This document shows positions 10,010 to 37,919 of a stretch of 42,085 nt of DNA, piece by piece. Origin of the DNA: a bacterium (lineage in GTDB: Bacteria; Patescibacteriota; Microgenomatia; UBA1400; PJMF01); NCBI GenBank assembly GCA_017431625.1, contig JAFRKQ010000010.1, positions 81,503 to 123,587 of the forward strand, given 5' to 3'. Each line of letters starts with the position of its first letter. Position 1 is the first letter of the stretch. Made by a program: the position numbers and the translations under genes. The notes under the pieces were generated by a model. The model ran no database searches. It saw only the letters and a program-made list of their open reading frames with translations, and was not told the DNA's origin.

Positions 10010-11839
10010 ATGGATAGCAATTTACAGCTTTTGATTGACGATTTAATCACCATGATTCAATCAGGTAGTGACAGCCATGACGATTTTTTGCGCCTCCAGC
10101 ACCACTATCGCAAGCCCCAAGCTGAGCAACCTTTTTTTACCAAAAGTGAAATTTTGGCCCAACTCTCAGCTCATCCTGCCTGGCCAAGCCTCGAGCCTCG
10201 CCAGCAAAAGGCTTTACACTCACTCTTGCGTGTCAAGCCGATTCGCACAGCCTCGGGTGTAGCCACCGTCACCATTCTCACCAAGCCCTGGCCATGTCCC
10301 GGGCAGTGCATTTTTTGTCCCGCTGATATCCGCATGCCCAAAAGCTACTTGGCCAACGAGCCAGGCGCTCAGCGAGCAGAAGCCAATTATTTTGATCCTT
10401 ACTTGCAAGTGACCAATCGCCTCGAGTCTCTAGCGGCTATGGGCCACACGCTGGCCAAGGTGGAAATTATTATTTTAGGTGGCACTTGGGATGCTTACCC
10501 CGAAAAATACCAACTCTGGTTTATCGCCGAGGTCTTTCGCGCCCTCAATGATTTCGGCACCCACCAAGAACGGGCGGCCGTCCGTGAGCATTTTTATCAA
10601 GACTTGGGTCAGAGGTTACACGCACGTGAGCTGACGCTTTCCAATCAGGCCAGTATCAATGCCGCCCGGACACAAACAGCGCAAAAACAAATCAATAGCG
10701 GGCAAATCAGCTACAATCAGCTGGTCACGCAAGAATTTTTGGCCTCCAAGCGCGAGCAACAACTCCAGACCCTCCAAACTGACACTTGGGAAACACTCGC
10801 TGTCCTCCAAGAGGAAAACAGTCACGCTTGCCACCGCAATGTCGGCCTCGTGATTGAGACCCGGCCTGATGAAATTACCAGCCTGCGCGCCCAAAACTAT
10901 CGCCGTTTGGGCTGTACCAAAATCCAAATCGGTGTCCAGTCTGTTAATGATCGACTACTGACCGCCAACGGTCGCTTTGTCACCACCGCTCAAATCACCC
11001 GTGCTTTTGCAATCTTGCGGCTTTATGGTTTTAAAATCCACGCCCACTTTATGGCCAATCTTTATGGCGCTACTCCTGAGTCAGACATTGAGGACTTTGC
11101 GGAATTTGTCACCAATCCTAATTATTTGCCTGATGAAATCAAGCTCTATCCCTGTGCCTTACTAGCCAATGCTCCTTTGATGAATTACTACAAACAGGGT
11201 CAGTGGCAACCTTACACTCACGACCAACTCCTACAGGTACTAAGCGCCAATATGCGGGCCGTCCCAGCTTACATGAGAATTTCCCGGATGATTCGTGACT
11301 TTTCCGCCACCGATATTGTCGCTGGCAATAAAAAGACCAACTTCCGCCAACTGGTGGATCAAAAACTTCAAAAGCAAGGTAGCAAATCGCTCGACATTCG
11401 CAGTCGCGAAATTAAAAACCAAAAAATTGACGCCGACAGTCTGCGACTGGATGAGGTCGTGTATGACACCAGTATCAGTCGTGAACATTTTTTACAATTT
11501 GTTACTCCCACCAATAAAATTGTCGGTTTTTTACGCTTGAGTCTGCCACAACCTCAAAAAGTCAAAAATATTTTCCCCAACCATCATGATGACTGGCGAC
11601 TACTAGACCAAACTGCAATGATCCGTGAAGTTCATGTCTACGGGGTGGTGGCGGGGCTCGATGCCCACACCAATTCGCAGCACTTAGGCCTGGGCAAAAA
11701 ATTAATTGCCCGCGCCCAAGCGATTGCCAAAAAACATGGCTACCAAAAAATCAGAGTTATCTCTGCTGTGGGCACGCGTGAATATTATGCCGCTCGTGGC
11801 TTCAAACAAGTGGGATATTATCAAGAAAAAGGACTGTGA
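10010..11839 (+). CDS. elp3: Elp3-type tRNA uridine(34) acetyltransferase
   Basis: Elp3 carboxymethylates wobble uridine (cm5U34) from acetyl-CoA by radical chemistry. The 609-residue protein has the radical-SAM cluster cysteines in CPGQCIFCP (Cys96, Cys100, Cys103), the Elp3 signature NEPGAQRAEANYFDPYLQ, and IILGGTWDAYP. The family motif IETRPDEI and GVQSVNDRLL follow. The C-terminal GNAT domain has REVHVYG, the acetyl-CoA loop QHLGLGKKL and GTREYYAARGF. An extra charged, glutamine-rich segment of about 80 residues (roughly 180-275) sits inside the radical-SAM part compared with eukaryotic Elp3. Transcription is divergent from the Trm9-like gene, with a leaderless start. Confidence 0.95.
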   Translation: MDSNLQLLIDDLITMIQSGSDSHDDFLRLQHHYRKPQAEQPFFTKSEILAQLSAHPAWPSLEPRQQKALHSLLRVKPIRTASGVATVTILTKPWPCPGQCIFCPADIRMPKSYLANEPGAQRAEANYFDPYLQVTNRLESLAAMGHTLAKVEIIILGGTWDAYPEKYQLWFIAEVFRALNDFGTHQERAAVREHFYQDLGQRLHARELTLSNQASINAARTQTAQKQINSGQISYNQLVTQEFLASKREQQLQTLQTDTWETLAVLQEENSHACHRNVGLVIETRPDEITSLRAQNYRRLGCTKIQIGVQSVNDRLLTANGRFVTTAQITRAFAILRLYGFKIHAHFMANLYGATPESDIEDFAEFVTNPNYLPDEIKLYPCALLANAPLMNYYKQGQWQPYTHDQLLQVLSANMRAVPAYMRISRMIRDFSATDIVAGNKKTNFRQLVDQKLQKQGSKSLDIRSREIKNQKIDADSLRLDEVVYDTSISREHFLQFVTPTNKIVGFLRLSLPQPQKVKNIFPNHHDDWRLLDQTAMIREVHVYGVVAGLDAHTNSQHLGLGKKLIARAQAIAKKHGYQKIRVISAVGTREYYAARGFKQVGYYQEKGL

Positions 11840-11856
11840 AAAACACCGACAAAACC

Positions 11857-11885
11857 TTGACAAACGTACTTTTGTATGCTAAAAT
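11857..11885 (+). promoter_or_regulatory. Promoter of the 11892 small gene
   Basis: TTGACA at 11857-11862, 17-bp spacer, TAAAAT at 11880-11885. The ATG follows after 6 nt, so the transcript should be leaderless. It begins 17 nt after the elp3 stop. Confidence 0.75.
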
Positions 11886-11891
11886 AAATCT

Positions 11892-12092
11892 ATGAAAGAG
11901 AGAAATGTTAATACAAATACCAAGTCAACTAGAACTAGAAAGATTGGCAAGTTTCGCGGATTTCCACCCATTATCATTCCCGAAAGTGAACTGCGACGCA
12001 TCGAAAATGACCCCAACAAAGTGACCGCAACCAAGCTGGTCGAGGAGTGGAAAAAAGATCCCAATTGGAACAAAATTAAGGTAGAATGGTAA
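11892..12092 (+). CDS. Small basic protein, unknown
   Basis: This is a 66-residue, lysine/arginine-rich protein. It has a polar N-terminal third, a FRGFPPIIIPESELRRIE segment, and a C-terminal amphipathic stretch with KLVEEWKKDPNW. The strong promoter 6 nt upstream of its ATG argues that the frame is real despite its size. The layout, a small charged protein followed at 5 nt by a tiny frame, resembles an antitoxin with a lost toxin, but no antitoxin fold can be assigned by eye. Confidence 0.6.
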   Translation: MKERNVNTNTKSTRTRKIGKFRGFPPIIIPESELRRIENDPNKVTATKLVEEWKKDPNWNKIKVEW

Positions 12093-12097
12093 ATATC

Positions 12098-12208
12098 ATG
12101 ACAGTGCCACAGTTTGATTTCCAAAAGCTAGAGGTAATTAAAATTAACAAATTAGCAAATTACACGAAGCTGGTAGCGAATTTGGACTGCGATTATCTTT
12201 TTTCTTAA
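12098..12208 (+). CDS. Possible 36-aa ORF or gene remnant
   Basis: The ATG at 12098 opens a 36-codon frame (MTVPQFDFQKLEVIKI...) that starts 5 nt after the preceding small gene and ends in TAA. No Shine-Dalgarno site is evident. It could be a translated tail of the operon or the surviving start of a disrupted partner gene. Confidence 0.3.
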   Translation: MTVPQFDFQKLEVIKINKLANYTKLVANLDCDYLFS

Positions 12209-12230
12209 CTATTGTTTATCAGCGACAGCA

Positions 12231-12390
12231 CTTACCGAATAACTGAAATTGTTTGTGTCAATATTTTTGCCGCTTACCGAATAACTGATTATTGCCGAGC
12301 TCTGCGCACAGCTCGGCAAACCATTGCGGAGCTCGGCACCGAGCTCGGCAGTGTGGTGCGGAGCTCCGCACCGAGCTGTGCATTCCATAA
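12231..12390. repeat. AGCT-rich palindromic intergenic element, copy 1
   Basis: Two copies of TACCGAATAACTG (about 12233 and 12275) precede a GC-rich block. That block holds a perfect 10-bp stem (TTGCCGAGCT 12292-12301 with AGCTCGGCAA 12310-12319) and an 18-bp perfect palindrome GGTGCGGAGCTCCGCACC (12355-12372). A related block lies at 26560-26642. The surrounding interval 12209-12573 has no gene. A TTGTTT-N17-TATAAT promoter near 12502-12530 probably serves the next gene. Confidence 0.75.
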
Positions 12391-12573
12391 TGTTTGTTTT
12401 CGCTGTTTTGTGTGAGACAAAAAAATAATTCCGTCCACTAACCACAAAAAATATTAAGTTACTTTTTACGGTCGTGGAAAAGTCACAAAAATTAGTAGTT
12501 GTTTTTTGCCAACAATCAATTTATAATGGTAATCAAGAAAATAGACAAACAAGAAACGAGTTAGGAAGTCAGC

Positions 12574-15500
12574 ATGATTAATCGCAGCGTCAAAATAAAA
12601 ATCTTCACTTTAATCACCGCTTTGCTGGTCACCCATTTGGGGGTGGGAATCAGTGGCGTGCACGCGCAAGAAGCTCAACCTGCCGATGCCTACTGTACTA
12701 TTGGCTCAACTACATTGTTAGTTGTCAATCATAGCTGTGATGAACTACCAACCTCTCCATCTAAACCAAGCACCCCATTCACGACTGTCAATTTTACCGG
12801 CAATGTCTCGCAATTGGCTGACTTAGTTGACAATGTGACTGGGCTGAGTGATGAAAATTACGCCGCTTACTTTGGTAATGCCACTTCTTGGAATGTAACA
12901 CTTGTTTATGATGATAACGATTCGTTGCGTTCTGGGGCGGCCTTGGACGATGATGAGCCGCTCACTAGTGGTGATCTAGACGAGATTTTGCAACCACTAG
13001 TGGATACTGATTTTGGCGCTCGTGGCGAGGTGACAGTCGAGGTAACTCTTGATGGCAATGAACAGTACTGGGAGTATTCACACGACGATCCAGACAGTGC
13101 TGATTACTTTACTCTTGCGGGTTTAAATCAAATCGAGATGCAAATTGAAGGAGAATTCGCAGGTGATGGTATATTGTGGACCCAGTCTGGCCAAGAATAT
13201 TCACAACCGCCAGACGTAAGAATTGTCATGTCACAACTTGATTTTTACACCTTTATCAACGGAGCTAACAACAGCCTACGTGTTTACTGTGAAGAATATG
13301 GTGGCGGTTGTTACATCAGTCAGTTTTTTGAAAACGATGAGTATTTTAAGGATGTCAACTTTATTTATACCTTTCCCGCCATTGCTAAATATCAGATGCC
13401 AGCAACTACGCTAGCATATAATTTTGTTGATAGAAGAATAACTCGTGAAAATGGAGGCATCAATAATAACGATGGCACCTGGCATGTTGTGACGCTAGAA
13501 GACCAAGACCTTCATGCTCATTTGATTACTACCTTTAGCAGTGACGGTGAGTTTGTTAGTATCCAACCCGGTGATGATCTGGTATCTGATGACTATGGTA
13601 ACGTTAATGCTCGTGTTTATGAGTTGTTTGAAGATTTATCTCGAGAAATCAGTAGTAACAATTTCAAATTCATTGACCCTAATAGTAAAACTGAAATTGA
13701 ACAGATGACCGTCGCGATGGGTGATTATGATGAAGCGGACGAGATCAACATTACTTTTCATTCCAGTGGCCAAACAAGCGATCAAATCAAAGCTGCCAGA
13801 GCTGTCGCCCAGGTGGCTCGTACTGATGGGGTAAAGATAAATGGTAGCGGCACTAATTTTAGTTTTACTACTATAAATACATCATTGGATTGGGATATGG
13901 ATGACGACACCGACACCGGCCTGGATGACCAGATCACACTTACCTTTGCTCTGCCAGAGCTTATCGATCAAGTCGCCAACGCTTACAACGCCTTTATGGC
14001 CGCCGAGAGCCTAGAGATCAGCGTCACTAATTCTGGCGATCCAGTTATCAGCGTCACCAAAACCGACACGGGCGCCCAAGTGACTCTGATTGATGAGGGG
14101 ATCGCCCTCAGACAACTCGAGAGCTTGCTTACGACTATTAACAATACAGTAACAGTAAATGTGAACACTCAAATTAGTGGTTTCACCATTACCAAAAACG
14201 ATCAGAACAGCGTCACTGTCAGCTATGGTGGGGACAACCCGATGAGTGTCAGTGAATTCTTGGGCAAAAAGAGTCTCAATGTTGGCAGCAGCCTTACTAC
14301 TAACGACGCTAGTCGGCTGTATCATTTGCTGGAAGAAAAAGTGACTATCACCGGTCATGACACTGATAGTAAGAGTGACTATCTTTTTACCCCTCCCTGT
14401 GACGCTGACACCTTAACGGCACTGCTCGAGCAAGCCACTACCGGCGACACCCTAATTATCAGCAGCTTGATGGGTAGTGATGGCGAAGTCCCCTTTGCGT
14501 TGGCGCTCTCGGAGGGTCAAGCCGAGGCGGCGCAGATAACCTCCGCTCAGGTCACTATCCCACAAGCGGTCGCATTTTACCAGCAGTTGAGTGAGGCAAG
14601 CGGCAATACTGAGCTTAAAATCTATAATTATGCTAGTAAGACTCTCTACCGCATAGCCACACTTTTGCCCGATGACACCAGTGACGAGCAGGCAGGTACT
14701 ATCTGTACCGCTGACAATTATTGCACCAGTATTACCCCGTGGTCACTGGAGCGCAAGCCTTTGGCGGTCATTGATGGTGGCAGTGCCTCGCTTGACGACT
14801 TGCTAGCCGAGCTGACCCCGTCCGCCCAAAGCAGCGTTGACTATTATGCCTTGATCGAAAAAGAATTTAGCCAGACGACGGCTTATCACCAACCTGATTC
14901 CTGGTGGTCACGCCTAGTTGGTCACGCGTGGGCGGATCAAAGTGAGGTCGGTCTTTTCATGGTTCACGTTACCAGTGATGGCACCGCCTTGATTGGGACG
15001 GACGCGGTGGCTGCCCAGACAGTAGCCAGCCAAATTACCCAAGACAGCACCGTTTATTTATTTATCGTCAACCAAATCGGCACCGATCACGGTATTGTCC
15101 AGCTTACTCTTGCCAGTCTCACTCCTGATAGCAGCGAAGAGGTTTTAAGTGCCTTGCACGCCATTCGCCAGCAAGCGACGGCGACCAACTATATCCTCGA
15201 GGGTGACAATTTCAATCTCACGGTCACTACCCCTACCACCACTCATCAAACCACGAGTACTTTGCGAGCGACACTAACGACTACTAGCAGTGATAATTTT
15301 GCCACTCTGGTCAATGCCCTCACACTCTACGCTGATGAGACTTGGACTGGGACGATTGTTGGTCAAGATTACACTATTGAGCTAATCAAGGGACGGATCA
15401 ATCAAATCGGCTTTACGGCTGCGACCACGCGTGAGCAAGTGGAGGCGGCTATTGCCGGTACCAGCGGTCAGTTTATGGTCAGCTTTGGCAGCACTTCGAT

Positions 15501-16104
15501 GATGGCCCGTAACGGCAAGCTGGTCGATATTCAGATAGCTACTATTACTCATCAGCCCTTAAGTATCCCTAGTGGCGAAAATGTTCCCAATAATAGTCGG
15601 CCACAAGGCTGTGATGCCATCGCTCCAGTGGGTACTCCAGATTTATTCCAGGTTGACCGCCGAGGTGACAAAGCCACCCTTTACTTCACCCCTGTGCGTG
15701 ACTTTACCGATCGCTACCACGTGGTTTTTGGCCACGCCGATGGCGACGAGCGCTACGGTGGCATTGCCATGTCAGTCAGTGCCGAGCAAAACAATGGTGT
15801 TCTAGCAATTAATATCAACAATCTTGATCCCAGCCAGACTTATGCCTTCAAGGTGGCTCCAGTCAATAATTGCGCCGTCGGCACCTGGTCCAATTGGCTC
15901 ACCACCAAAGGTGTCAGTCGCGCAGGCAGTAGTGTGTCCAAGACCTATCGCTACGGCGGTAGCACTATTAGTGTTAGCAATAACGTCATCAGCAAACCGC
16001 GTACCTCCACGCCAGTCAATACCCAGCCATTACTGGAAGCAGGCAGTGTCAATCCCACTCCGATCAAAACTGTCAGCCGCCAACCCAAACACTTGACTTT
16101 CTAA
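12574..16104 (+). CDS. Large secreted protein with C-terminal Fn3-like domain
   Basis: The 1176-residue protein starts with a signal peptide: basic residues, hydrophobic core ITALLVTHLGVGISG, then VHAQEA as the likely cleavage region near residue 31. The mature chain is acidic and Ser/Thr/Asp-rich. It contains repeated segments resembling one another (for example LEISVTNSGDPVISVTKTD and TISGFTI-like stretches), suggesting tandem beta domains. Residues about 1020-1120 look like a fibronectin type III domain (TLYFTPVRDFTDRYHV ... LDPSQTYAFKVAPVNN). No C-terminal sorting motif or TM helix is present, so it is probably released or held non-covalently. The AGGAAG ribosome-binding site supports the ATG. 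The family is not recognised; adhesion is inference. Confidence 0.75.
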   Translation: MINRSVKIKIFTLITALLVTHLGVGISGVHAQEAQPADAYCTIGSTTLLVVNHSCDELPTSPSKPSTPFTTVNFTGNVSQLADLVDNVTGLSDENYAAYFGNATSWNVTLVYDDNDSLRSGAALDDDEPLTSGDLDEILQPLVDTDFGARGEVTVEVTLDGNEQYWEYSHDDPDSADYFTLAGLNQIEMQIEGEFAGDGILWTQSGQEYSQPPDVRIVMSQLDFYTFINGANNSLRVYCEEYGGGCYISQFFENDEYFKDVNFIYTFPAIAKYQMPATTLAYNFVDRRITRENGGINNNDGTWHVVTLEDQDLHAHLITTFSSDGEFVSIQPGDDLVSDDYGNVNARVYELFEDLSREISSNNFKFIDPNSKTEIEQMTVAMGDYDEADEINITFHSSGQTSDQIKAARAVAQVARTDGVKINGSGTNFSFTTINTSLDWDMDDDTDTGLDDQITLTFALPELIDQVANAYNAFMAAESLEISVTNSGDPVISVTKTDTGAQVTLIDEGIALRQLESLLTTINNTVTVNVNTQISGFTITKNDQNSVTVSYGGDNPMSVSEFLGKKSLNVGSSLTTNDASRLYHLLEEKVTITGHDTDSKSDYLFTPPCDADTLTALLEQATTGDTLIISSLMGSDGEVPFALALSEGQAEAAQITSAQVTIPQAVAFYQQLSEASGNTELKIYNYASKTLYRIATLLPDDTSDEQAGTICTADNYCTSITPWSLERKPLAVIDGGSASLDDLLAELTPSAQSSVDYYALIEKEFSQTTAYHQPDSWWSRLVGHAWADQSEVGLFMVHVTSDGTALIGTDAVAAQTVASQITQDSTVYLFIVNQIGTDHGIVQLTLASLTPDSSEEVLSALHAIRQQATATNYILEGDNFNLTVTTPTTTHQTTSTLRATLTTTSSDNFATLVNALTLYADETWTGTIVGQDYTIELIKGRINQIGFTAATTREQVEAAIAGTSGQFMVSFGSTSMMARNGKLVDIQIATITHQPLSIPSGENVPNNSRPQGCDAIAPVGTPDLFQVDRRGDKATLYFTPVRDFTDRYHVVFGHADGDERYGGIAMSVSAEQNNGVLAININNLDPSQTYAFKVAPVNNCAVGTWSNWLTTKGVSRAGSSVSKTYRYGGSTISVSNNVISKPRTSTPVNTQPLLEAGSVNPTPIKTVSRQPKHLTF

Positions 16105-27625: not shown

Positions 27626-30600
27626 GTGAAAGACAATATGAACGAAACGAAAAAATATTTTGTCGGTTTAGATTGTGGCACCAGTTCGGTTGGTTGGGCG
27701 GTGAGCGATGATCATTATCGGCTATTGACGGCCAAAGATAAAACGATGTGGGGGAGTCGCCTTTTTGATGAGGCGCAGGCAGCTGATACCCGTCGCTTGA
27801 GCCGCTCCAACAGGCGCCGTTTGCGTCGCACTCGCGACCGAGTAAAACTCTTACAACTGCTTTTTGAATCCGAAATGATTAAGGTGGATCCTGATTTTTA
27901 TTTACGTCTCAAAGAAAGTTTCCTGCAACGTGAAGATCGTGATGACAAAATCAAAGCCTCTCGATATACGCTCTTTGTTGATCCCAATTTTACCGACAAA
28001 GATTATTATGATCAATATCCCACTATCTGGCACCTGCGCCTAGCACTCATGACCGCCCCAGCCGAGCAGCATTTTGACCTGCGCCTTTATTACCTCGCTA
28101 TCAGTCACATTATGACCCACCGGGGTCACTTTTTGCGCGAGGGCAAATTTACCGGTGCTGGTGAATTTTTGCCTTTATATCAAGAATTTATTGAAGTAGC
28201 CGCCAATTATGATTTTACAATTGATGCCGATGTAGCCACACAAGTGCAGCAACTATTGCTTAACAAGAATATTAGTTTGCTAGACCGCAAAAAACAGCTT
28301 GAGCAATTACTTTTTGTCACTAGTGATGATGAATCACTAGAAGATATGAACAAAAGGCAAAAAGAGTTGGCGGCATTGTTAGCCGGCTCAAAAGTTACAC
28401 CCCAAAAGATATTTACCGCATCCGTTGATAACGAAGCGATGAAATTTCAACTTACCGACGATTGGGAAGAAAAGCTGCCAGAACTCGAAGCCGAGATTAG
28501 CAGTGAACAACTTGAATTGATTGTGAGTGTCAAAAAATTAGCCGACTGGGCAACACTCAAACAATTACTTGGTCAAAGCCAGTTAGTCAGCGAGGCGATG
28601 GTGGATAATTATCAGCTCCACCAAAAGCAACTCCATGAACTCAAAACTCTGCTTAAGCCCTATCCAGATGATTATCGACACTTTTTCAAAACTATCAAAG
28701 GTGATAAACTGGTCAATTATAACGCCTATACCGGTAAGGCTTACAGTACTAAAGAAAATGGCCGCAAAACTCATTATCAGTGTTCGCAAGAAGACATCAA
28801 CAAAGAAATTAAAAGGCTTTTAGAAAAACACGGGCTGCAATCGCCGCTGCTTAGTCTGGCTGAGAAAAATAAACTTTTACCCAAACAACGTGGTCAAGCC
28901 AAAGGTACAATCCCACAACAACTCCATCACAATGAATTGGAATTGATCTTGGAGCGTTTATGTCGCGACTATCCTTCATTTGCCGAAGTAACCGCTGGTG
29001 AAGACGAAAGCTATAATACCAAAGCCAAGAAAATTGCCACAATTCATTCTTTCCGTATTCCTTATTACTGTGGACCATTGGTAAACAAAAATAAGAGCCA
29101 ATTTTCATGGGCCAGTGAGGAAATTAACGAGTTAGTGCGTCCCTGGAATTTTGCCAAACTAGTTGATTTAGACAAGCGTGCCAATGCCTTCATCAAGAGA
29201 ATGACGAGTAAATGTACATACCTGCCAACCGAAGATGTTTTACCCAAAGCCTCGCTACTGTATCAAAAATACTGTGTTCTTAACGAACTCAACAATCTCA
29301 AATTTAACGGTTACAGACTAGAACACGATGTTAAACAAAAACAAACTATTTACAATGAACTTTTTGTTGACATTAATGACGGCATCAAAGGCAATATCAC
29401 ACTCAAGTCTCTAACCAAACAATTACACGAGCGTGGTTTGATTCCCAAAAACACTACCGTTACTGGTACTAGTGAGACCAAATTTTTGCCACGTCTAAGC
29501 ACCCACCACGATTTCAGCTCAATCTTAGGCGATGACTACCAACAAAAATTCACCAACGAGCAGCTAGAAAAAGTTATTGATTTGATTACCATCCTCGGCA
29601 ATGAGAAAAAGATATTAGCAAAGAAAATACGTGAAACTTTAGGTGAGGACAAATGCGACCAAAAACAAGCCCAAAAACTGGCGCGCAAAAACTACACTGA
29701 CTGGTCCAGATTTTCTGCCACCTTTTTAACCAAAATCAAAGCCACAATCAATGGCCAGCAAATGAATTTGATTCAAGCACTGTGGGAGACTAATTACAAT
29801 CTCATGGAGCTTTTGGGTCAGCAATTTGACTTTAGTAAAACAATTGATGAATTCAATCACACTACTGAGCAGACAACTACAATCACCTATCAGGATATTA
29901 AAAAACTCTATTGCTCAGCTCCAGTGCGTCGCAGCATTTGGCAAGCATTGCGTTTGGTAGATGAAATTGTCAGAGTCCAAGGAAACGCGCCCGCCAAAAT
30001 TTTCATTGAGGCAACACGTGGTAGTGATAATCAGCCCACACCCAAATACACTGCTAGCCGGCAAAAGAAACTCATTGACGGTTATCATAAATTAGCCCAA
30101 AGTTCCAGCTCTCAGGAGCTACTTGCTAAGCTAGAAAGCACCGAACCTCGTGACTTACAAAGCAAAAAACTTTACCTGTACTACACACAAGTAGGGCGTT
30201 GTGCTTATTGTAGCGAGCATATTCACCTCGAACAATTATCCACGCGAGCTTACGACATTGATCACATCTATCCTCAATCACTCACCAAAGACGACAGTCT
30301 CACCAACAACAATGTCCTCGTATGCGCTACTTGCAATCGCAAAAAAGCTGATCGCTATCCGCTCAATACTGTTGATCCTAGCTGGCAATCAAATATGCAC
30401 GGACATTGGGAAAGTTGGCGCAAGGCTGGTCTTATTACCAAAGAAAAATATGACCGCCTCACCCGCACCACACCACTCACCACAGAAGAGCTCAGCGGCT
30501 TTATTGCCCGCCAGCTTGTGGAGACTAGTCAGACCGTTCGTGCTTTGCGCGATTTGCTCACTCGTCGCTATCCACAGACCAAAATTGTCCTCGTCAAAAG

Positions 30601-31786
30601 TGGACAGGTCAGTGATTTTCGTCATCACTTTGCCCAAGGCTATCACAACGAACAACACCAAGAGCTTGACATCCCCGCTCGTCCTGAGTTTGTCAAAGTC
30701 AGAGCGCTCAACGACTTGCATCACGCTATGGATGCCTACCTGAATATCGTTGTTGGTAATGTCATGAGTCAAACTTTCACTGACAATCCCTATACGTGGC
30801 TCAAAGAACATCAAAATCGGCATTATTCACTCAAACCATATGTGATTTTCCGCGAGCGGCCCAGTGAAAAATATCCCGAGTTTCCCCGTGGATGGTATTA
30901 TCAAGAAAGCATTCAGACCATCAGCCAGACGTTGCAAAAGCCAGAGACCATTTTGTGGACACGCCAGACGGATCGGGTGACGGGGCAAATTTCCGATCTA
31001 CAAATAGTCGGCAAAAACAAGAATCCCGACACGCTCCCGATCAAACGAGGGCTGGATCCCAAAAAATACGGTGGCTACAATTCTCTCAAAGGCTCTTACT
31101 TTGCGCTGATCAAACTAGAAGAAAAGCAAGTCTGGCGACGCAAAATCGTCCAAATCCCCATCATGGACACTACCAATGCCGATGACTATTTGGCACGACA
31201 ATATCCCGGCTGTCAAATCTTGTTACCTCGCATAGAAAAATGGAGTCTCTTGATCGTTGATGGCAACCCGATGAGAATTGCAGGTAGGACTGGGAAAAGT
31301 TTAATTTTTGCGCCAGCGCGGCAGCTATATTTTGATGCGCCTACCAATGCTTATCTTAAAAAAGTAATCAATCTTCATCAGAAATTGTCAATCAATAAAA
31401 ACTATGTCATTAATGAAACTCGAGACAATGTGAGCAAGGAAATGAATTTGGAGTTATACGAAAAAATAGTTCAGAATATTCAGGTATTTAAGACGATGCC
31501 TGTCCTTGGCAACAATGTGGTAAAATTTGGTGATGAAAGTAAAATAAGATTTGCTAATGCGACCATTAATGTTCAATGCGAAATAATAAATAGTATTTTA
31601 TTAGCATTCGGTTGCAATACTTCATCAGCTAATTTGAATACTATATTAACTGCCGCTATTGCAGTCGGCAAATGTCTCGTTTCCAACGACATCACCGACC
31701 ACCCTGAAGTCAGACTTATCCAAGAATCACCCACTGGTCTTTTTGTCAAAGTCATGGATTTGCTCAGTTTGGAGGCAAAAAGCTAA
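27626..31786 (+). CDS. cas9: CRISPR-associated endonuclease Cas9, type II-A-like
   Basis: The RNA-guided DNA endonuclease, 1386 residues from the GTG (an ATG at 27638 is an equal candidate). RuvC-I has GLDCGTSSVGW with Asp16, the arginine-rich bridge helix is at about 56-75, a long REC lobe follows, and RuvC-II has FIEATRG with Glu795. HNH reads YDIDHIYPQS with Asp879, His880 and Asn904. RuvC-III reads HHAMDAYLNIVVG with His1033 and Asp1036, so both nuclease sites look intact. HNH is bracketed by CAYC (859-862) and CATC (900-903), a probable zinc site absent from S. pyogenes Cas9. The C-terminus ends SPTGLFVKVMDL like S. pyogenes, but the RKR PAM-reading motif is not seen. The stop overlaps the cas1 start. 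Confidence 0.97.
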   Translation: MKDNMNETKKYFVGLDCGTSSVGWAVSDDHYRLLTAKDKTMWGSRLFDEAQAADTRRLSRSNRRRLRRTRDRVKLLQLLFESEMIKVDPDFYLRLKESFLQREDRDDKIKASRYTLFVDPNFTDKDYYDQYPTIWHLRLALMTAPAEQHFDLRLYYLAISHIMTHRGHFLREGKFTGAGEFLPLYQEFIEVAANYDFTIDADVATQVQQLLLNKNISLLDRKKQLEQLLFVTSDDESLEDMNKRQKELAALLAGSKVTPQKIFTASVDNEAMKFQLTDDWEEKLPELEAEISSEQLELIVSVKKLADWATLKQLLGQSQLVSEAMVDNYQLHQKQLHELKTLLKPYPDDYRHFFKTIKGDKLVNYNAYTGKAYSTKENGRKTHYQCSQEDINKEIKRLLEKHGLQSPLLSLAEKNKLLPKQRGQAKGTIPQQLHHNELELILERLCRDYPSFAEVTAGEDESYNTKAKKIATIHSFRIPYYCGPLVNKNKSQFSWASEEINELVRPWNFAKLVDLDKRANAFIKRMTSKCTYLPTEDVLPKASLLYQKYCVLNELNNLKFNGYRLEHDVKQKQTIYNELFVDINDGIKGNITLKSLTKQLHERGLIPKNTTVTGTSETKFLPRLSTHHDFSSILGDDYQQKFTNEQLEKVIDLITILGNEKKILAKKIRETLGEDKCDQKQAQKLARKNYTDWSRFSATFLTKIKATINGQQMNLIQALWETNYNLMELLGQQFDFSKTIDEFNHTTEQTTTITYQDIKKLYCSAPVRRSIWQALRLVDEIVRVQGNAPAKIFIEATRGSDNQPTPKYTASRQKKLIDGYHKLAQSSSSQELLAKLESTEPRDLQSKKLYLYYTQVGRCAYCSEHIHLEQLSTRAYDIDHIYPQSLTKDDSLTNNNVLVCATCNRKKADRYPLNTVDPSWQSNMHGHWESWRKAGLITKEKYDRLTRTTPLTTEELSGFIARQLVETSQTVRALRDLLTRRYPQTKIVLVKSGQVSDFRHHFAQGYHNEQHQELDIPARPEFVKVRALNDLHHAMDAYLNIVVGNVMSQTFTDNPYTWLKEHQNRHYSLKPYVIFRERPSEKYPEFPRGWYYQESIQTISQTLQKPETILWTRQTDRVTGQISDLQIVGKNKNPDTLPIKRGLDPKKYGGYNSLKGSYFALIKLEEKQVWRRKIVQIPIMDTTNADDYLARQYPGCQILLPRIEKWSLLIVDGNPMRIAGRTGKSLIFAPARQLYFDAPTNAYLKKVINLHQKLSINKNYVINETRDNVSKEMNLELYEKIVQNIQVFKTMPVLGNNVVKFGDESKIRFANATINVQCEIINSILLAFGCNTSSANLNTILTAAIAVGKCLVSNDITDHPEVRLIQESPTGLFVKVMDLLSLEAKS

Positions 31787-32664
31787 TGTCGTGGCGTGTA
31801 GTGGTGATTTCCAGCCGGAGCAAGCTAGATTATCAACTCGAGCATCTGGTAGTGCGCAGTGATGAGGATGAGAAGCGGATTTATCTGGGTGACATTTCTG
31901 TTTTGATTTGCGAAAGCACCGCCATTTCACTGACAGCTTATCTGCTCTCGCAGCTGACTGAGCGCAAAATCAAAATAATTTTTTGTGATGCCAAACACAA
32001 TCCCCAAAGCGAACTGGTGCCATACTATGGCGGTCACGATACTAGTGGTCGCTTACGAATTCAATTATCATGGAGTGACGACATTAAGGCCCAGGTCTGG
32101 CAAAGAATTATCGCCAGCAAAATCAATCATCAAGCTCACGTCCTTGATCGCACTCATCACAAAGATAAGGCCAAAAGTTTACGCGCTTACCTAACACAAA
32201 TTGAGCCAGGAGACACTACCAATCGCGAAGGTCATGCAGCCAAAGTATATTTTAACACTCTGTTTGGCGATAATTTTGCGCGCGCCAATGATGAGGATGT
32301 CACCAATGCTGTCCTCAATTATGGTTACAGCGTTCTTTTGGCTTGTTTCAATCGAGAAATTGTCGCCGCTGGTTATTTCACCCAGCTTGGCATCTGGCAT
32401 GATAATAGCGAAAACCCTTTTAATCTTGGCTCCGACTTGATGGAAAGCTTTCGCCCGATTATTGATGCTTTTGCTTATGAACAAAAGTGGACTGTTTTTG
32501 GCCCAGAGCAAAAACATGCCGTGGTCAATTTGCTCAATAGCAAAGTTTATATTAATAACTCCGAACAATATCTTAATAATGCTATTGATATTTATGTACA
32601 CAGCGTCCTGCGCGCTTTGGAACAAGAAAATCCAGAATTAATCAGCAATTGGTATGAGTTATAG
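31786..32664 (+). CDS. cas1: CRISPR integrase Cas1, type II
   Basis: Cas1 with Cas2 integrates new spacers at the leader end of the array. The 292-residue protein has the metal-binding triad at Glu148 (REGHAAKVYF), His205 (GIWHDN) and Glu220 (LMESFRPIID), at nearly the same positions as S. pyogenes Cas1. The C-terminal helical domain is of the short type II form. The ATG shares one base with the cas9 stop (TAATG), indicating translational coupling. The 3' end overlaps cas2 by 11 bp. Confidence 0.97.
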   Translation: MSWRVVVISSRSKLDYQLEHLVVRSDEDEKRIYLGDISVLICESTAISLTAYLLSQLTERKIKIIFCDAKHNPQSELVPYYGGHDTSGRLRIQLSWSDDIKAQVWQRIIASKINHQAHVLDRTHHKDKAKSLRAYLTQIEPGDTTNREGHAAKVYFNTLFGDNFARANDEDVTNAVLNYGYSVLLACFNREIVAAGYFTQLGIWHDNSENPFNLGSDLMESFRPIIDAFAYEQKWTVFGPEQKHAVVNLLNSKVYINNSEQYLNNAIDIYVHSVLRALEQENPELISNWYEL

Positions 32665-32974
32665 ATTTATGCGCACATTAGTGATGTTTGATCTACCCAC
32701 TGAGACTAACAGTGACCGGCGTCACTACCGACAATTTCGCCGTTTTCTCTTACGTGAAGGCTTCGTAATGATGCAAGAGTCGATCTACACCAAAATCTGT
32801 ATCAATGCTCACATGGTTGACAAGGTGGCAGTGGCGATTGATGCCCACAAACCACCCAAAGGAATTGTGCAGGTACTTAGCGTCACCGAAAGACAATTTA
32901 TCAATATGAAACTCATCACAGGGCAGCTTGTCAACAATTATATCCAAACTGAGCAGCGACTGGTGGTTATATGA
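32654..32974 (+). CDS. cas2: CRISPR-associated protein Cas2
   Basis: The 106-residue protein is the structural partner of Cas1 in the spacer-integration complex. It has the ferredoxin-like fold start RTLVMFDLPTET with the conserved Asp, the FRRFLLREGFVMMQESIYTKI helix-strand region typical of type II-A Cas2, and the C-terminal strand region with SVTERQF. It overlaps both neighbours: the start lies within cas1 and the stop overlaps the csn2 ATG (ATGA). Confidence 0.96.
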   Translation: MSYRFMRTLVMFDLPTETNSDRRHYRQFRRFLLREGFVMMQESIYTKICINAHMVDKVAVAIDAHKPPKGIVQVLSVTERQFINMKLITGQLVNNYIQTEQRLVVI

Positions 32975-33639
32975 AAATGAGATTACCTGGTTTTGATCAA
33001 GAACTCGTATGGACTAGCACTCAACACGTCAATGAGCTGATTGTCGAAAATTCACAATTTTTCCGTCGGATCATTCAAGATTTTTATCAACATGAGGATG
33101 ACGGTAGTGGCATTAGTCTGATCGATCAAGGTCAAGCCCTCGATTTTGCCAGCGATATTGAAACAGTTATAAATCCCACGCAATTAGATTTTAACAATCG
33201 TCGGGTGACTCTTAATTTTTTCAAGCTCCTCACTCAAGCCTCACTTAACGAAAACAACTACTTGCCCACTCAAGAACTCAAAGCTACGCTTGCTTCCTAT
33301 TTGGTGGATTTGGTGGAATCCACGCAAATTAATTTTCAAATTGGTACAGATGATTTTGCTCTCACGCAACTTGCTAAGGCTGTCAATCTTCATCTTATTA
33401 GTGACGAAAATTTCCTCACCCGTTTGATTGAATATCAAGAAGTCATGCGCGAGCTAGGCAAAGTGAAACTAACGGTCTGGATAAATTTGCGTAGTTTTTT
33501 GACCAATGAGCAGTTACAACAATTACTTGCAGCCAATAATGAGCGTGAGTTGAATGCTCTTTTGCTTGAATCAACACCACGCCAACCAATAAGAAGCTTA
33601 CCACGGATGATTATCGATAAACAATTGTGTCAAATCTAA
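32971..33639 (+). CDS. csn2: Csn2-like protein, type II-A adaptation factor
   Basis: Csn2 forms a tetrameric ring around DNA ends and is required for spacer acquisition in type II-A systems. The 222-residue protein matches S. pyogenes Csn2 in length (220) and in pattern. ENSQFFRRIIQDFYQHEDD corresponds to its CVFSKIVQYCYQYEEDS region, and LAKAVNLHLISDENFLTRLIEYQEVMREL to ELIKSLGVKVE...EKCLEILQIFKYL. KLTVWINLRSFLTNEQLQQL corresponds to KLLIFVNSGAFLTKDEV. Its presence classifies the locus as II-A. An internal ATG at 32977 is an alternative start. The array leader begins right after the stop. Confidence 0.88.
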   Translation: MKMRLPGFDQELVWTSTQHVNELIVENSQFFRRIIQDFYQHEDDGSGISLIDQGQALDFASDIETVINPTQLDFNNRRVTLNFFKLLTQASLNENNYLPTQELKATLASYLVDLVESTQINFQIGTDDFALTQLAKAVNLHLISDENFLTRLIEYQEVMRELGKVKLTVWINLRSFLTNEQLQQLLAANNERELNALLLESTPRQPIRSLPRMIIDKQLCQI

Positions 33640-33847
33640 TTTGTATAAATTTTTTATACAATAATCAAAATAATTACTATTTATCATTTAAATTTAATAT
33701 ACTTATTACAAAATTTTACCCTTGACAACCAAAGCCCAATATGATATACTCTAATAAATTCGGTCTTTGACATCGTTAATAATAACGAAAAAATGCGATT
33801 GATCGGCTTAGTCAGCCGTTGCGCTCCTGTCAAACTTTCATTTTGAG
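33640..33847 (+). promoter_or_regulatory. CRISPR leader
   Basis: An AT-rich 208-bp leader separates csn2 from the first repeat. It begins with a 21-bp inverted repeat (TTGTATAAA 33641-33649, TTTATACAA 33653-33661). It contains the promoter at 33722, a 5-bp hairpin CGGCT/AGCCG (33803-33817) and ends TTTTGAG directly against repeat 1. That ending matches the type II-A leader-anchoring motif ATTTGAG at six of seven positions. Confidence 0.8.
33722..33750 (+). promoter_or_regulatory. Promoter of the CRISPR array
   Basis: TTGACA at 33722-33727, 17-bp spacer, TATACT at 33745-33750. Transcription would start near 33757, about 90 nt before repeat 1. Confidence 0.8.
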
Positions 33848-34611
33848 GTTTGAGAGTCGTGTAAAAAAATCGCAGTGTCGAACCTCTGGACTCTTATCTA
33901 GCCCCAAGCTGATGTTTGAGAGTCGTGTAAAAAAATCGCAGTGTCGAACTGAGTGGCTAGAGCCTCACGATAAGCACGGGTTTGAGAGTCGTGTAAAAAA
34001 ATCGCAGTGTCGAACTTTTAAACACCAAACTTAATGAGTTAACCCGTTTGAGAGTCGTGTAAAAAAATCGCAGTGTCGAACTATACTTATAGGATCTACA
34101 AGTAGTGGTATGTTTGAGAGTCGTGTAAAAAAATCGCAGTGTCGAACTCGCAAAATTTTTTATTTTATCATCCATTAGTTTGAGAGTCGTGTAAAAAAAT
34201 CGCAGTGTCGAACCCAGATTCAAAGACCTATAAAAAAATTGCTGTTTGAGAGTCGTGTAAAAAAATCGCAGTGTCGAACCTTTGATAATAAAACCAGTGT
34301 CATTGGTACCTGTTTGAGAGTCGTGTAAAAAAATCGCAGTGTCGAACATTTATTTGACTATATCACACCCGCAAGTAGTTTGAGAGTCGTGTAAAAAAAT
34401 CGCAGTGTCGAACTACATTGATTTCCTTTCAGACACGAAAGGAGTTTGAGAGTCGTGTAAAAAAATCGCAGTGTCGAACTATTGACTGGTGATATAAAAT
34501 ATAAGGTGAGTTTGAGAGTCGTGTAAAAAAATCGCAGTGTCGAACTAATTGCCGGGAACTACATTCAATGGGGGTGTTTGAGAGTCGTGTAAAAAAATCG
34601 CCGTATCGAAC
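33848..34611 (+). CRISPR. CRISPR array, 12 repeats and 11 spacers
   Basis: Repeats are 36 bp, starting GTTTGAGAGTCGTG and ending CGCAGTGTCGAAC, with partly self-complementary ends (GTTTGA, TCGAAC). Starts: 33848, 33914, 33980, 34046, 34112, 34178, 34244, 34312, 34378, 34444, 34510, 34576. Ten spacers are 30 bp and one (34280-34311) is 32 bp. The first eleven repeats are identical. The twelfth differs at two positions (CGCCGTATCG), marking it as the old, leader-distal end. Transcription is therefore left to right. No spacer matches another part of this window by eye. Confidence 0.98.
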
Positions 34612-35185: not shown

Positions 35186-35220
35186 AAAAACTTCCCTCAC
35201 TTTTTTTCGAGTGAGGGAAG
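35186..35220 (-). terminator. Intrinsic terminator of the glycine-rich protein gene
   Basis: On the minus strand CTTCCCTCACT pairs with AGTGAGGGAAG (35220-35191), followed by TTTTTG. It lies 34 nt after the stop codon. Confidence 0.9.
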
Positions 35221-35254
35221 CCGAAACGAAATAAGAAACTTATCAGACTGCAAA

Positions 35255-36391
35255 CTAAATCCCCAGATAGACGGCAAGCTGGGTGATACGGGCGACACCA
35301 TTACCAGTGTGACCGACACCACTAACATAGTAATTGCCAACACTTGTAGGATCAGGCATTGGGGTCAGCTCGCCTTTAGTATTGGTCCAGGTGTAGCTGG
35401 CCCCGTCAATCATAGTGGTATTGGTAAATGAATAACCTGTGGGTGAGAGTGAACAGTTTCTATCAGTAGTACCAGTGTCACAACCAGCTTTGGGGGTAGT
35501 GTCGGTGAGACTAGTGACGGCGACACAGCCGGTGTGACCGGAGATGTAGGAAGAGCCACCGCCTGAACCTGCTCCACAAGTAGCACAACCAGGCTTAGTA
35601 TTGATATAACCACCATACCAACCACCACCAGCGCCTGGTATACCTTCACTAGGACCACCACTACCGTTTTGTCCAATTCCAAAATCGTAACCAGAAACTT
35701 GAGTGGCATCAGAACTGCTCATACTATCATATGTCATATAATGCCAAGCCTGTTTATTACCATAACCTTGTAAGCCACCAGAAATACCAGCAGAATCATT
35801 ATATTTGAGTGCTTCATTTACATAATTAATAACCGCACCTCCACCACCGCCAGCATCATTAGTAGAACTCTGACTCTTAAGGCCACTACCACCAGTGCCA
35901 CCGCCATTATACGCGTTCTGTGTATCAGAATACAAAACACCCGTTTTCCCTTCTTCACCAACATAGATAAACAATGATGTATTCTGTGGTACTTGTATGT
36001 TGCCGGCAGCATAGCCGCCTTCGTTTTGTACAGCCAGTGGTGCTGTGACAACATAGGCAGGTCCTCCACTCGCGCCCCACAACTCTACTACATACGTACC
36101 CGTGGCTGGGGCGGTAAAAGTCTGATAATTCCCAGTATAGTCAAAGGTGGTCGTTTTGACCACGCACCCCTTATAAAAGCTCGAGTAAGTGCTGTCGTCC
36201 GGACATAAATCCAGCGCTAAATACTTATCGGCGGCAACTTTGACAAATTTGACGCCACCCACGCGCACGACATTGCCTGAAACGACGTCTTTGAGTTTCA
36301 TCGTCTGATTGCCCGAGGCGGCGCGAGCTAGAGAGCCCGTGAGGGTGAAGAAAATCGCCAGCAAAAAGATCCGCCCAAACACTCTGGACAT
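35255..36391 (-). CDS. Secreted glycine-rich surface protein
   Basis: The 378-residue protein has a signal peptide (MSRVFGRIFLLAIFFTLTGSLARA, cleavage near AAS). A short linker with paired cysteines is followed by a glycine-rich beta domain: FTAPATGTYVVELWGASGG, then many GGG runs (AYNGGGTGGSG, AGGGGGAVI, GAGGGWYGGY, CATCGAGSGGGSSY). Proteins with this pattern are secreted or cell-surface exposed. The ATG at 36391 has AGAAAGG 5 nt upstream; the GTG two codons earlier is less likely. The mRNA has a leader of about 170 nt with a complex fold. A terminator follows the gene, so it is a one-gene unit. Confidence 0.85.
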   Translation of the reverse strand: MSRVFGRIFLLAIFFTLTGSLARAASGNQTMKLKDVVSGNVVRVGGVKFVKVAADKYLALDLCPDDSTYSSFYKGCVVKTTTFDYTGNYQTFTAPATGTYVVELWGASGGPAYVVTAPLAVQNEGGYAAGNIQVPQNTSLFIYVGEEGKTGVLYSDTQNAYNGGGTGGSGLKSQSSTNDAGGGGGAVINYVNEALKYNDSAGISGGLQGYGNKQAWHYMTYDSMSSSDATQVSGYDFGIGQNGSGGPSEGIPGAGGGWYGGYINTKPGCATCGAGSGGGSSYISGHTGCVAVTSLTDTTPKAGCDTGTTDRNCSLSPTGYSFTNTTMIDGASYTWTNTKGELTPMPDPTSVGNYYVSGVGHTGNGVARITQLAVYLGI

Positions 36392-36454
36392 GGTCACCTT
36401 TCTTTTTTTCTGCTACGGGTTTTAGCTCTATAGAGAGCAGTCACTATTCTCAGT

Positions 36455-36561
36455 GAGTCTGACGGAAACACTAGCGAACATTTACGAGAATGCTCTCACC
36501 AACGCTAATATCTTATCCAAATCCACTATCATAACGCAGATTTGCAAGTCCGTCAGACTCG
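36455..36561 (-). ncRNA. Structured leader RNA with three-way junction
   Basis: Read on the minus strand from the predicted start near 36561. P1 is a perfect 12-bp stem, GAGTCTGACGGA (36560-36549) with TCCGTCAGACTC (36466-36455). P2 inside it is CAAATC (36544-36539) with GATTTG (36523-36518). P3 is TAGCG (36507-36503) with CGCTA (36476-36472), capped by GAGA/TCTC. Two further short hairpins lie between P1 and the ribosome-binding site. The fold matches no riboswitch class I know. It probably controls the glycine-rich protein mRNA, or is processed as a free RNA. Confidence 0.6.
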
Positions 36562-36567
36562 TTTCTT

Positions 36568-36596
36568 AGTATAACATGGAAGAGAGTGGTTGTCAA
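36568..36596 (-). promoter_or_regulatory. Promoter of the glycine-rich protein gene
   Basis: Minus strand: TTGACA (36596-36591), 17-bp spacer, TATACT (36573-36568). The start lands at the first base of stem P1. Confidence 0.85.
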
Positions 36597-36693: not shown

Positions 36694-36731
36694 TTGAGGA
36701 CATTTTTTCAGTCAACTGAAAACTACTCAAG
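36694..36731. repeat. Direct repeat flanking the ATPase gene, downstream copy
   Basis: TTGAGGACATTTTTTCAGTC plus AACTGAAAA, overlapping the ATPase stop codon. It contains the dyad TTTTCAGT/ACTGAAAA. The same 29 bp occur upstream of the gene at 37986. Confidence 0.85.
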
Positions 36732-37919
36732 CAACCAGTCCAGCACAAACTTTTGTTTAATCCCGTCATAATCCATCTCGGGATCATAATCCAGGGTAAT
36801 TAAAGTCTTGGGGTGATTATCTTTCACCTGTAGCAGACTGCGCAACTCGCGCTCCAAAGTCTCTTTTTGTCGCACGCTAGCGGCCACTTGATAATACTCG
36901 ACTGCATTCGCCTTAATGGCGACAAAATCAATTTCGTATTTGTCAGCTTGTCCCACATACACTTGATAACCACGACGTAAAAGTTCCAAATAAACCACAT
37001 TCTCAAGCAAACGCCCCTGATCTTGCACCCGCGCGCGCAATAAATAATAGCGCAAGCCAAGATCCACCACGTAGTACTTATCACCGGTTTTCAACAATTG
37101 GCGACCACGAATATCGTAGCGATCTGCCCGATAGAAAATATAAGCATTAGTTAGTGCCGATAGATAGCCGTCGATAGTGTTACCACTCACAAGATTGCCA
37201 TTTTGCTGGAAACTCGTGACAATGCTGTGTGTCGAAGCCAAATTGCCAATATTGTCCATAAGATACAACACCAATCGTTCTAGCAATGCCACGTCTTGTA
37301 CTTTACGCCTAGTAACCACATCCTTGAGAATAATTGTATTGTAAAGATCACGCAAATAGACAGCCGCCTGTTGAGGATCACTCAAAGAGGCTGCATAAGG
37401 GAAGCCACCCCGCATGACGTAATGATTGTACAATTGCTGACGATCGCTGATTTGTGGCAAAACTTGGGTATACTCAGCAAAAGAGTAAGGGAAGACATTG
37501 ATAGTCACAAAACGGCCAGAAAGTAAAGTCGCCAACTCTCCAGAAAGGATATGGGCATTTGAGCCGGTAATGTAAATATCAACATTCTTGCGCAAAAACA
37601 GCGAATTAATCGCTCTTTGCCAGCCATCAATCATTTGCACCTCATCAATCAAAACATAATACTGACACTGATGACGGATCAAATTTAGAACATAATCATG
37701 TAATTGTTCATATGTCTGAAAATGATAACGGGCTAAATCCTCCAGATTGATCCTAATTATTTGCTCCGGGCGAACACCTTGGCGATACAAATAATTTTCA
37801 TACAAATCAAAAAGAGTGGATTTACCACTACGCCGCACCCCTGTGATTACCTTGATCACATCCTGATGTTGCCAGCTAATAAGGGTTCTGAGCAGTTTGC
37901 TACGTCCAATCAGTCTCAT
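36723..37919 (-). CDS. AAA ATPase, AAA_14/DUF4143 family (second copy)
   Basis: The 398-residue protein has Walker A GVRRSGKST near residue 27, Walker B YVLIDEVQ, sensor region YITGSNAHIL, a GRFVTINVFPYSFAEY motif, and a C-terminal DUF4143 domain with ENVVYLELLRRGY, the YEIDFVA strand and YYQVAASV. This is the classical DUF4143 architecture, more typical than the copy at 1700-2971, with which it shares little sequence. TGCTATAAT (-10 at 37932-37927) ends 7 nt before the ATG, so the mRNA is probably leaderless. Near-identical direct repeats flank the gene. The function of the family is not established. Confidence 0.92.
   Translation of the reverse strand: MRLIGRSKLLRTLISWQHQDVIKVITGVRRSGKSTLFDLYENYLYRQGVRPEQIIRINLEDLARYHFQTYEQLHDYVLNLIRHQCQYYVLIDEVQMIDGWQRAINSLFLRKNVDIYITGSNAHILSGELATLLSGRFVTINVFPYSFAEYTQVLPQISDRQQLYNHYVMRGGFPYAASLSDPQQAAVYLRDLYNTIILKDVVTRRKVQDVALLERLVLYLMDNIGNLASTHSIVTSFQQNGNLVSGNTIDGYLSALTNAYIFYRADRYDIRGRQLLKTGDKYYVVDLGLRYYLLRARVQDQGRLLENVVYLELLRRGYQVYVGQADKYEIDFVAIKANAVEYYQVAASVRQKETLERELRSLLQVKDNHPKTLITLDYDPEMDYDGIKQKFVLDWLLE

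Follow-up and report, generated by a model that had tools for sequence, protein, structure and literature searches.

The leader of a glycine-rich exported protein gene on the minus strand of the window (the whole 42,085-nt stretch of DNA analysed here) most likely belongs to a lineage-specific set of pseudoknotted leaders found upstream of exported surface-protein genes, of which it represents one class. The same leader plan recurs in front of exported-protein genes, at least 15 in this genome, two in a second genome of the same genus and one in another genus. It comprises a helix, P1, that begins 5-9 nt beyond the -10 box, and a pseudoknot in which a strand enclosed by P1 pairs with the segment immediately 3' of that helix. 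Conserved pairing, together with a conserved place in the 5' UTRs of related genes, marks these elements, as far as comparison of sequences can, as structured cis-regulatory leader RNAs. The element has so far been found in one genus only, apart from a probable relative in a sister genus. The pseudoknot, the other leader classes in the genome and their common plan all go beyond what the first-pass annotation had described.

The source genome, that of a small gut bacterium (1.14 Mb, 96% complete; window on contig C12), encodes an RpoB closest to the Microgenomates/Pacebacteria group of Patescibacteria, the nearest being that of a goat-jejunum MAG at 84% identity, and genes for both RNase J and RNase Y are present. 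The features of the leader and its gene are listed below, where L027 denotes the leader of a paralogous gene.

36568-36596 (-): promoter, with -35 TTGACA (36596-36591), 17-nt spacer and extended -10 TG-T-TATACT (hexamer 36573-36568); 11/12 matches.
36549-36560 (-): P1 5' arm, GAGTCTGACGGA, starting 7 nt 3' of the -10; compensatory changes relative to L027.
36455-36466 (-): P1 3' arm, TCCGTCAGACTC, 12 bp perfect with the 5' arm.
36518-36544 (-): P2 hairpin (36544-36536 with 36526-36518) of the minimum-energy fold; L027 also has a hairpin, in a different paired register.
36468-36511 (-): P3 helix (36511-36503 with 36476-36468), containing an internal loop and an apical portion; double changes in 3/9 pairs relative to L027.
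36485-36498 (-): P3b apical hairpin, TGAGAGCATTCTCG, its sequence kept in L027 as GGTGAGAGNNTTCTCGTA.
36497-36491 and 36490-36485 (-): proposed pseudoknot 5' strand, GAGAGCA and TTCTCG, which is P3b.
36433-36452 (-): proposed pseudoknot 3' strand, TGAGAA (36452-36447), 7-nt bulge, TGCTCTC (36439-36433).
36425-36438 (-): P4 local hairpin of the predicted folds, GCTCT-CTAT-AGAGC, competing with the pseudoknot for the same strand.
36397-36402 (-): ribosome-binding site (RBS) GAAAGG, left unpaired by the predicted fold; paralogs have an identical GAAAGG immediately 5' of ATG.
35255-36391 (-): gene for the exported glycine-rich protein (378 aa; signal peptide, ALK_LTK_GRD domain; PF12810).
35189-35222 (-): intrinsic terminator 3' of the gene (13-bp stem, T run).

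The match of the encoded protein to PF12810 (E 1.7e-28) agrees with the earlier assignment of the structure to the leader of a glycine-rich surface protein. Its start codon was judged to be ATG 36391 from the MSR N-termini of paralogs, and GTG 36397 was dropped on the same grounds. As an intrinsic terminator follows the gene, the transcription unit is monocistronic. About 15 paralogs of the N-terminal part of this protein are encoded in the genome; these PF12810-like glycine-rich exported proteins are spread over many contigs, the longest reaching 1446 aa, and two more occur in the same-genus genome and one, distant, among 40 other genomes of the family. A phage origin was rejected: the protein had no relative in viral contigs and its N-terminal domain none in the genome contigs searched in that check, and motif scans of viral contigs returned only short chance matches, which failed the covariance models. 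The upstream neighbour, an AAA_14/DUF4143 ATPase gene (36723-37919, minus strand), has its own perfect TTGACA-16-TATAAT promoter and hardly any leader, in contrast to the gene considered here. The window also holds a complete type II CRISPR-Cas locus (27626-34611, plus strand) with Cas9 (1386 aa), Cas1, Cas2, Csn2 and 12 repeats of GTTTGAGAGTCGTGTAAAAAAATCGCAGTGTCGAAC. No convincing tracrRNA anti-repeat was found for it in the window, where the best complementarity outside the array lies at 12595 on the minus strand (-31.3 kcal/mol); the leader itself was rejected as the tracrRNA, its complementarity to the CRISPR repeat being no higher than that found elsewhere in the window.

The promoter lies directly upstream of the 12-bp stem, much as the first-pass annotation had it, and because P1 begins 7 nt after the -10 box, its start would fall at about +1/+2 of a transcript whose first nucleotide we place from the promoter sequence. 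The leader runs for about 170 nt on the minus strand, from promoter to RBS; the 12-bp stem first annotated is real, but the span originally given to the element was too short, as the leader continues to the RBS at 36402-36397. The inverted repeat (36455-36466/36549-36560) is unique in the window among those of at least 12 bp with arms no more than 150 bp apart, and Markov shuffling of the intergenic region produces one in 7 of 5000 trials, which bears out the claim that such a match is unlikely by chance. Folded as the minus strand, the leader reaches -52.3 kcal/mol (z -3.6) and beats 200 of 200 dinucleotide shuffles; the plus strand of the interval first annotated attains a z of -1.7 only, and a plus-strand reading of the site was rejected for this poor fold. 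In the predicted minimum-energy form P1 encloses two inner stems, the arrangement proposed at the outset. The shape was also said to be unfamiliar, and no family of Rfam 15 matches the element at or near its gathering score: covariance-model searches of the window, and of 13 paralog loci at E values up to 3, returned only tRNAs and sub-threshold chance matches.

Pairing is retained where sequence is not. The window leader and that of L027, in which P1, a P2 hairpin and P3 recur, constitute class A, and the comparison of homologous leaders, set beforehand as the test that could refute the element, found all 31 consensus pairs standard in L027, six of them changed on both sides (7/500 shuffles score as high). 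Sliding the pairing partners abolishes this compensatory signal. Within the genome the apical motif GGTGAGAGNNTTCTCGTA is confined to the class A pair, a class A model run against 88 genomes of the order recovered nothing beyond these two leaders, and a DNA search of 89 relatives gave, outside the window, chance matches only (E > 0.01). On a DNA-level reading, the arms would be operator half-sites or the termini of a small transposable element. Such elements also show perfect 12-bp inverted repeats; the window leader, however, is single-copy in the genome (for which reason a repeat or mobile element was rejected), no target duplication was seen, the register is tied to +1, and the paralog's arms change in compensating fashion instead of keeping their sequence, with P1 covariation seen in further leaders as well. 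We regard this reading as scarcely credible.

The proposed pseudoknot of the window leader would join P3b to the segment beyond P1 through 7 + 6 bp interrupted by the 7-nt bulge, and is weak when taken alone, as 118 of 2000 shuffles are equally strong. At the same place in L027 the complementarity extends to 15 contiguous bp (6/2000 shuffles). The alternative pairing GCTCT/AGAGC, which forms P4, has an equivalent in L027 and is not significant against shuffles in class A.

The leaders of most other paralogs are larger, at 250-307 nt, and fall into four more sequence groups when aligned and sorted by eye:

Class B: L024, L026, L028 and the L067 leader (four).
Class C: L033, L034, L036, L037 and, from the second genome of the genus, L045 (five).
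Class D: L030 and L038.
Class E: L023 and L032.

Covariation is most extensive in class C, for which a bracketed pseudoknot model has 74 pairs, 94.8% of cells being standard, and 27 double-change pairs against 10 in shuffles (0/500 shuffles as high). Its pseudoknot helix, AAAGUGGGaGAUAC with GUAUCgCCCACUUU, comprises 13 bp, paired in five of five sequences and with double changes in three pairs. The corresponding complementarity measures 20 bp in the class B leader L067 and 15 bp in the other three of that class, 12-15 bp in class D, 8-12 bp in class E and 15 bp in L048. In a genome of another genus, L046, which precedes a protein with a related N-terminus, follows the same plan with an 11-bp pseudoknot (0/2000 shuffles); L041 and L061, more distant paralogs, are without a clear version of it. 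The predicted topology is that of an H-type pseudoknot with pairing that crosses P1, by covariation in class C and elsewhere by position and complementarity. In all 17 leaders compared, an extended -10 of the TGNTATAAT type lies upstream and P1 begins 5-9 nt after it, with start sites placed from the promoters; a stable helix at the predicted first nucleotides of the transcript is what characterizes 5'-terminal mRNA stabilisers.

Classes B and C have their own strongly conserved loops, namely GGACA and GUAUCGC in class C, and in class B a hairpin, UUACAGCUCC-UACCC-AAGCGUAA, that is near-invariant in all four members. The CCCC/CCCU of this hairpin might form a loop-loop contact with a conserved GGGG/AGGG some 70 nt further 3'. 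Near the 5' end of class C leaders, inspection by eye also revealed a strong Shine-Dalgarno sequence (AAGGAG type) 5 nt before GTG-AAA-(TTT/TTC/ATC)-(TGA/TAA), possibly a conserved three-codon mini-ORF. An alternative hairpin that would take the place of the pseudoknot is found in several class B and C leaders and is significant in a few only; in class C, downstream sequence can pair with the pseudoknot 3' strand as CCACTTT/AAAGTGG (2/300 shuffles) or CGCCTAC/GTAGGCG (7/300). The class C and class B models, searched against 380 and 34 genomes, respectively, found no match outside the genus bar one at chance level (E 0.3). Class E is picked up weakly by the class C model (E 1.5e-4), which suggests that these two classes have a common origin.

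A scan of 735 kb of the 1.14-Mb genome for an extended -10, P1 at +1 and a pseudoknot returned 16 matches, compared with none in one shuffled genome and one in another. Exported surface proteins follow ten of the 16, and nine of those proteins are paralogs of the window protein; the other six matches have no consistent context. The scan was too strict to include the window leader, whose contiguous pseudoknot is short. The tenth surface-protein match (L067 11176), a class B leader with the 20-bp pseudoknot, precedes an unrelated-looking cysteine-rich exported protein of 1369 aa, which implies that the leaders are tied to surface proteins and not to one gene family alone. The L067 gene occupies 11447-15556 on the plus strand, and its product (MSRWWFWHIIVCKKAC...) has no reported paralog match despite the class B leader.

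As to function, we tentatively favour, at somewhat short of an even chance, an element acting in cis from the 5' UTR, which would shield the 5' end from RNase J-type decay and be able to alternate between the pseudoknot and a local hairpin. P1 would close the very first transcribed bases of the mRNA, leaving decay of the RppH or RNase J type without a single-stranded 5' end to act on. The segment immediately 3' of P1 would dock into the P3 apex as the pseudoknot (a closed form), or alternatively fold into the local hairpin P4 (an open form); with the RBS staying free, the default would be a long-lived, translated message. The balance of closed and open forms, set by some ligand, protein or condition, would tune expression gene by gene, and because the RBS lies outside both forms and the leader lacks a terminator, the output would be message stability or ribosome access, as opposed to classical attenuation. 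Sealing of the first nucleotide is predicted for all 17 leaders, and its pairing is kept as sequence drifts, which fits a barrier to 5'-end-dependent decay. The weak points of this explanation are the window pseudoknot (118/2000), the significance of P4 in few leaders, the two-member size of class A, and the strongly conserved loops, which 5' protection by itself would not require.

Were P1 and overall compactness all that mattered, the leaders would be plain, non-switching stabilisers like those of ompA, papA and aprE, whose mRNAs are stabilised by 5' pairing or stem-loops according to references cited in PMC3997798. These precedents, the register of P1 at +1 in every leader and the presence of RNases J and Y are all consistent with such a role. 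Yet a bare hairpin suffices for 5' protection, so stability alone leaves the strongly conserved loops unexplained; the conserved pseudoknot is likewise not needed, and leaders of 170-300 nt far exceed the required size. We consider a plain stabiliser improbable. Conversely, 5' sealing could be incidental to a riboswitch or protein-binding switch, whose conserved inner loops would bind a ligand or protein, select the pseudoknot or P4 and so control translation. That several classes with class-specific, highly conserved loops precede homologous genes, that pairings of the 3' strand are mutually exclusive in several leaders, and that the class C pseudoknot covaries strongly, would all be expected of such a switch. 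The elements of a riboswitch expression platform are nevertheless lacking: no intrinsic terminator was found inside the window leader and the RBS is unpaired in the predicted folds, for which reasons transcription attenuation and RBS sequestration were each rejected, and the RBS belongs to neither alternative helix. The targets, moreover, are surface proteins, whereas a metabolic pathway would have pointed to a ligand, and Rfam offers no match. We hold this explanation to be rather unlikely. Release of a trans-acting RNA from the leader is very improbable: the compact fold with its own strong promoter would suit one, but the RBS and gene follow directly 3' with no terminator in between, and every paralog gene has its own leader.

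Beyond the sealed, switchable leader that we prefer, a bolder proposal, possible if on balance doubtful, is that a private, expanded superfamily of RNA switches runs the surface-protein repertoire, comprising at least five divergent classes that share P1 at +1, P3 and a choice of pseudoknot or P4, every class responding to its own signal and all of them together replacing protein regulators. Patescibacteria live on other cells with very small genomes and must manage their surface proteins, and little is known of their gene regulation; in the literature consulted on regulatory RNAs in this group, one paper mentions riboswitches, as a possible tool only. With some 15 elaborate leader RNAs, almost all of them on a single exported family, the 1.14-Mb genome makes RNA-based control of a surface repertoire a directly testable proposition, and the leaders constitute a new pseudoknotted family missing from Rfam.

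Among known systems, SAM-II, preQ1 and similar riboswitches have pseudoknotted aptamers, and resemble the present leaders in their 5'-UTR location, conserved loops, pairing of the interior with sequence towards the RBS, and possible alternative pairing; the present leaders, however, match no Rfam family, involve neither RBS nor terminator in their alternative helices, and have surface proteins as targets. The ompA and papA leaders of E. coli and aprE of B. subtilis likewise have a helix at the very 5' terminus of mRNAs for exported or surface proteins, and the likeness to B. subtilis extends to the RNases J and Y encoded here. Those leaders, however, are simple hairpins, whereas the present ones, at 170-300 nt, combine a long-range pseudoknot with conserved loops and inner helices that covary. 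Orphan candidate structured RNAs from comparative genomics (e.g., PMC8040213, PMC2864571) are similarly covarying leader RNAs without known function; what sets the present leaders apart is that a single reduced genome holds several divergent classes of them, on one protein family and with every class starting at +1.
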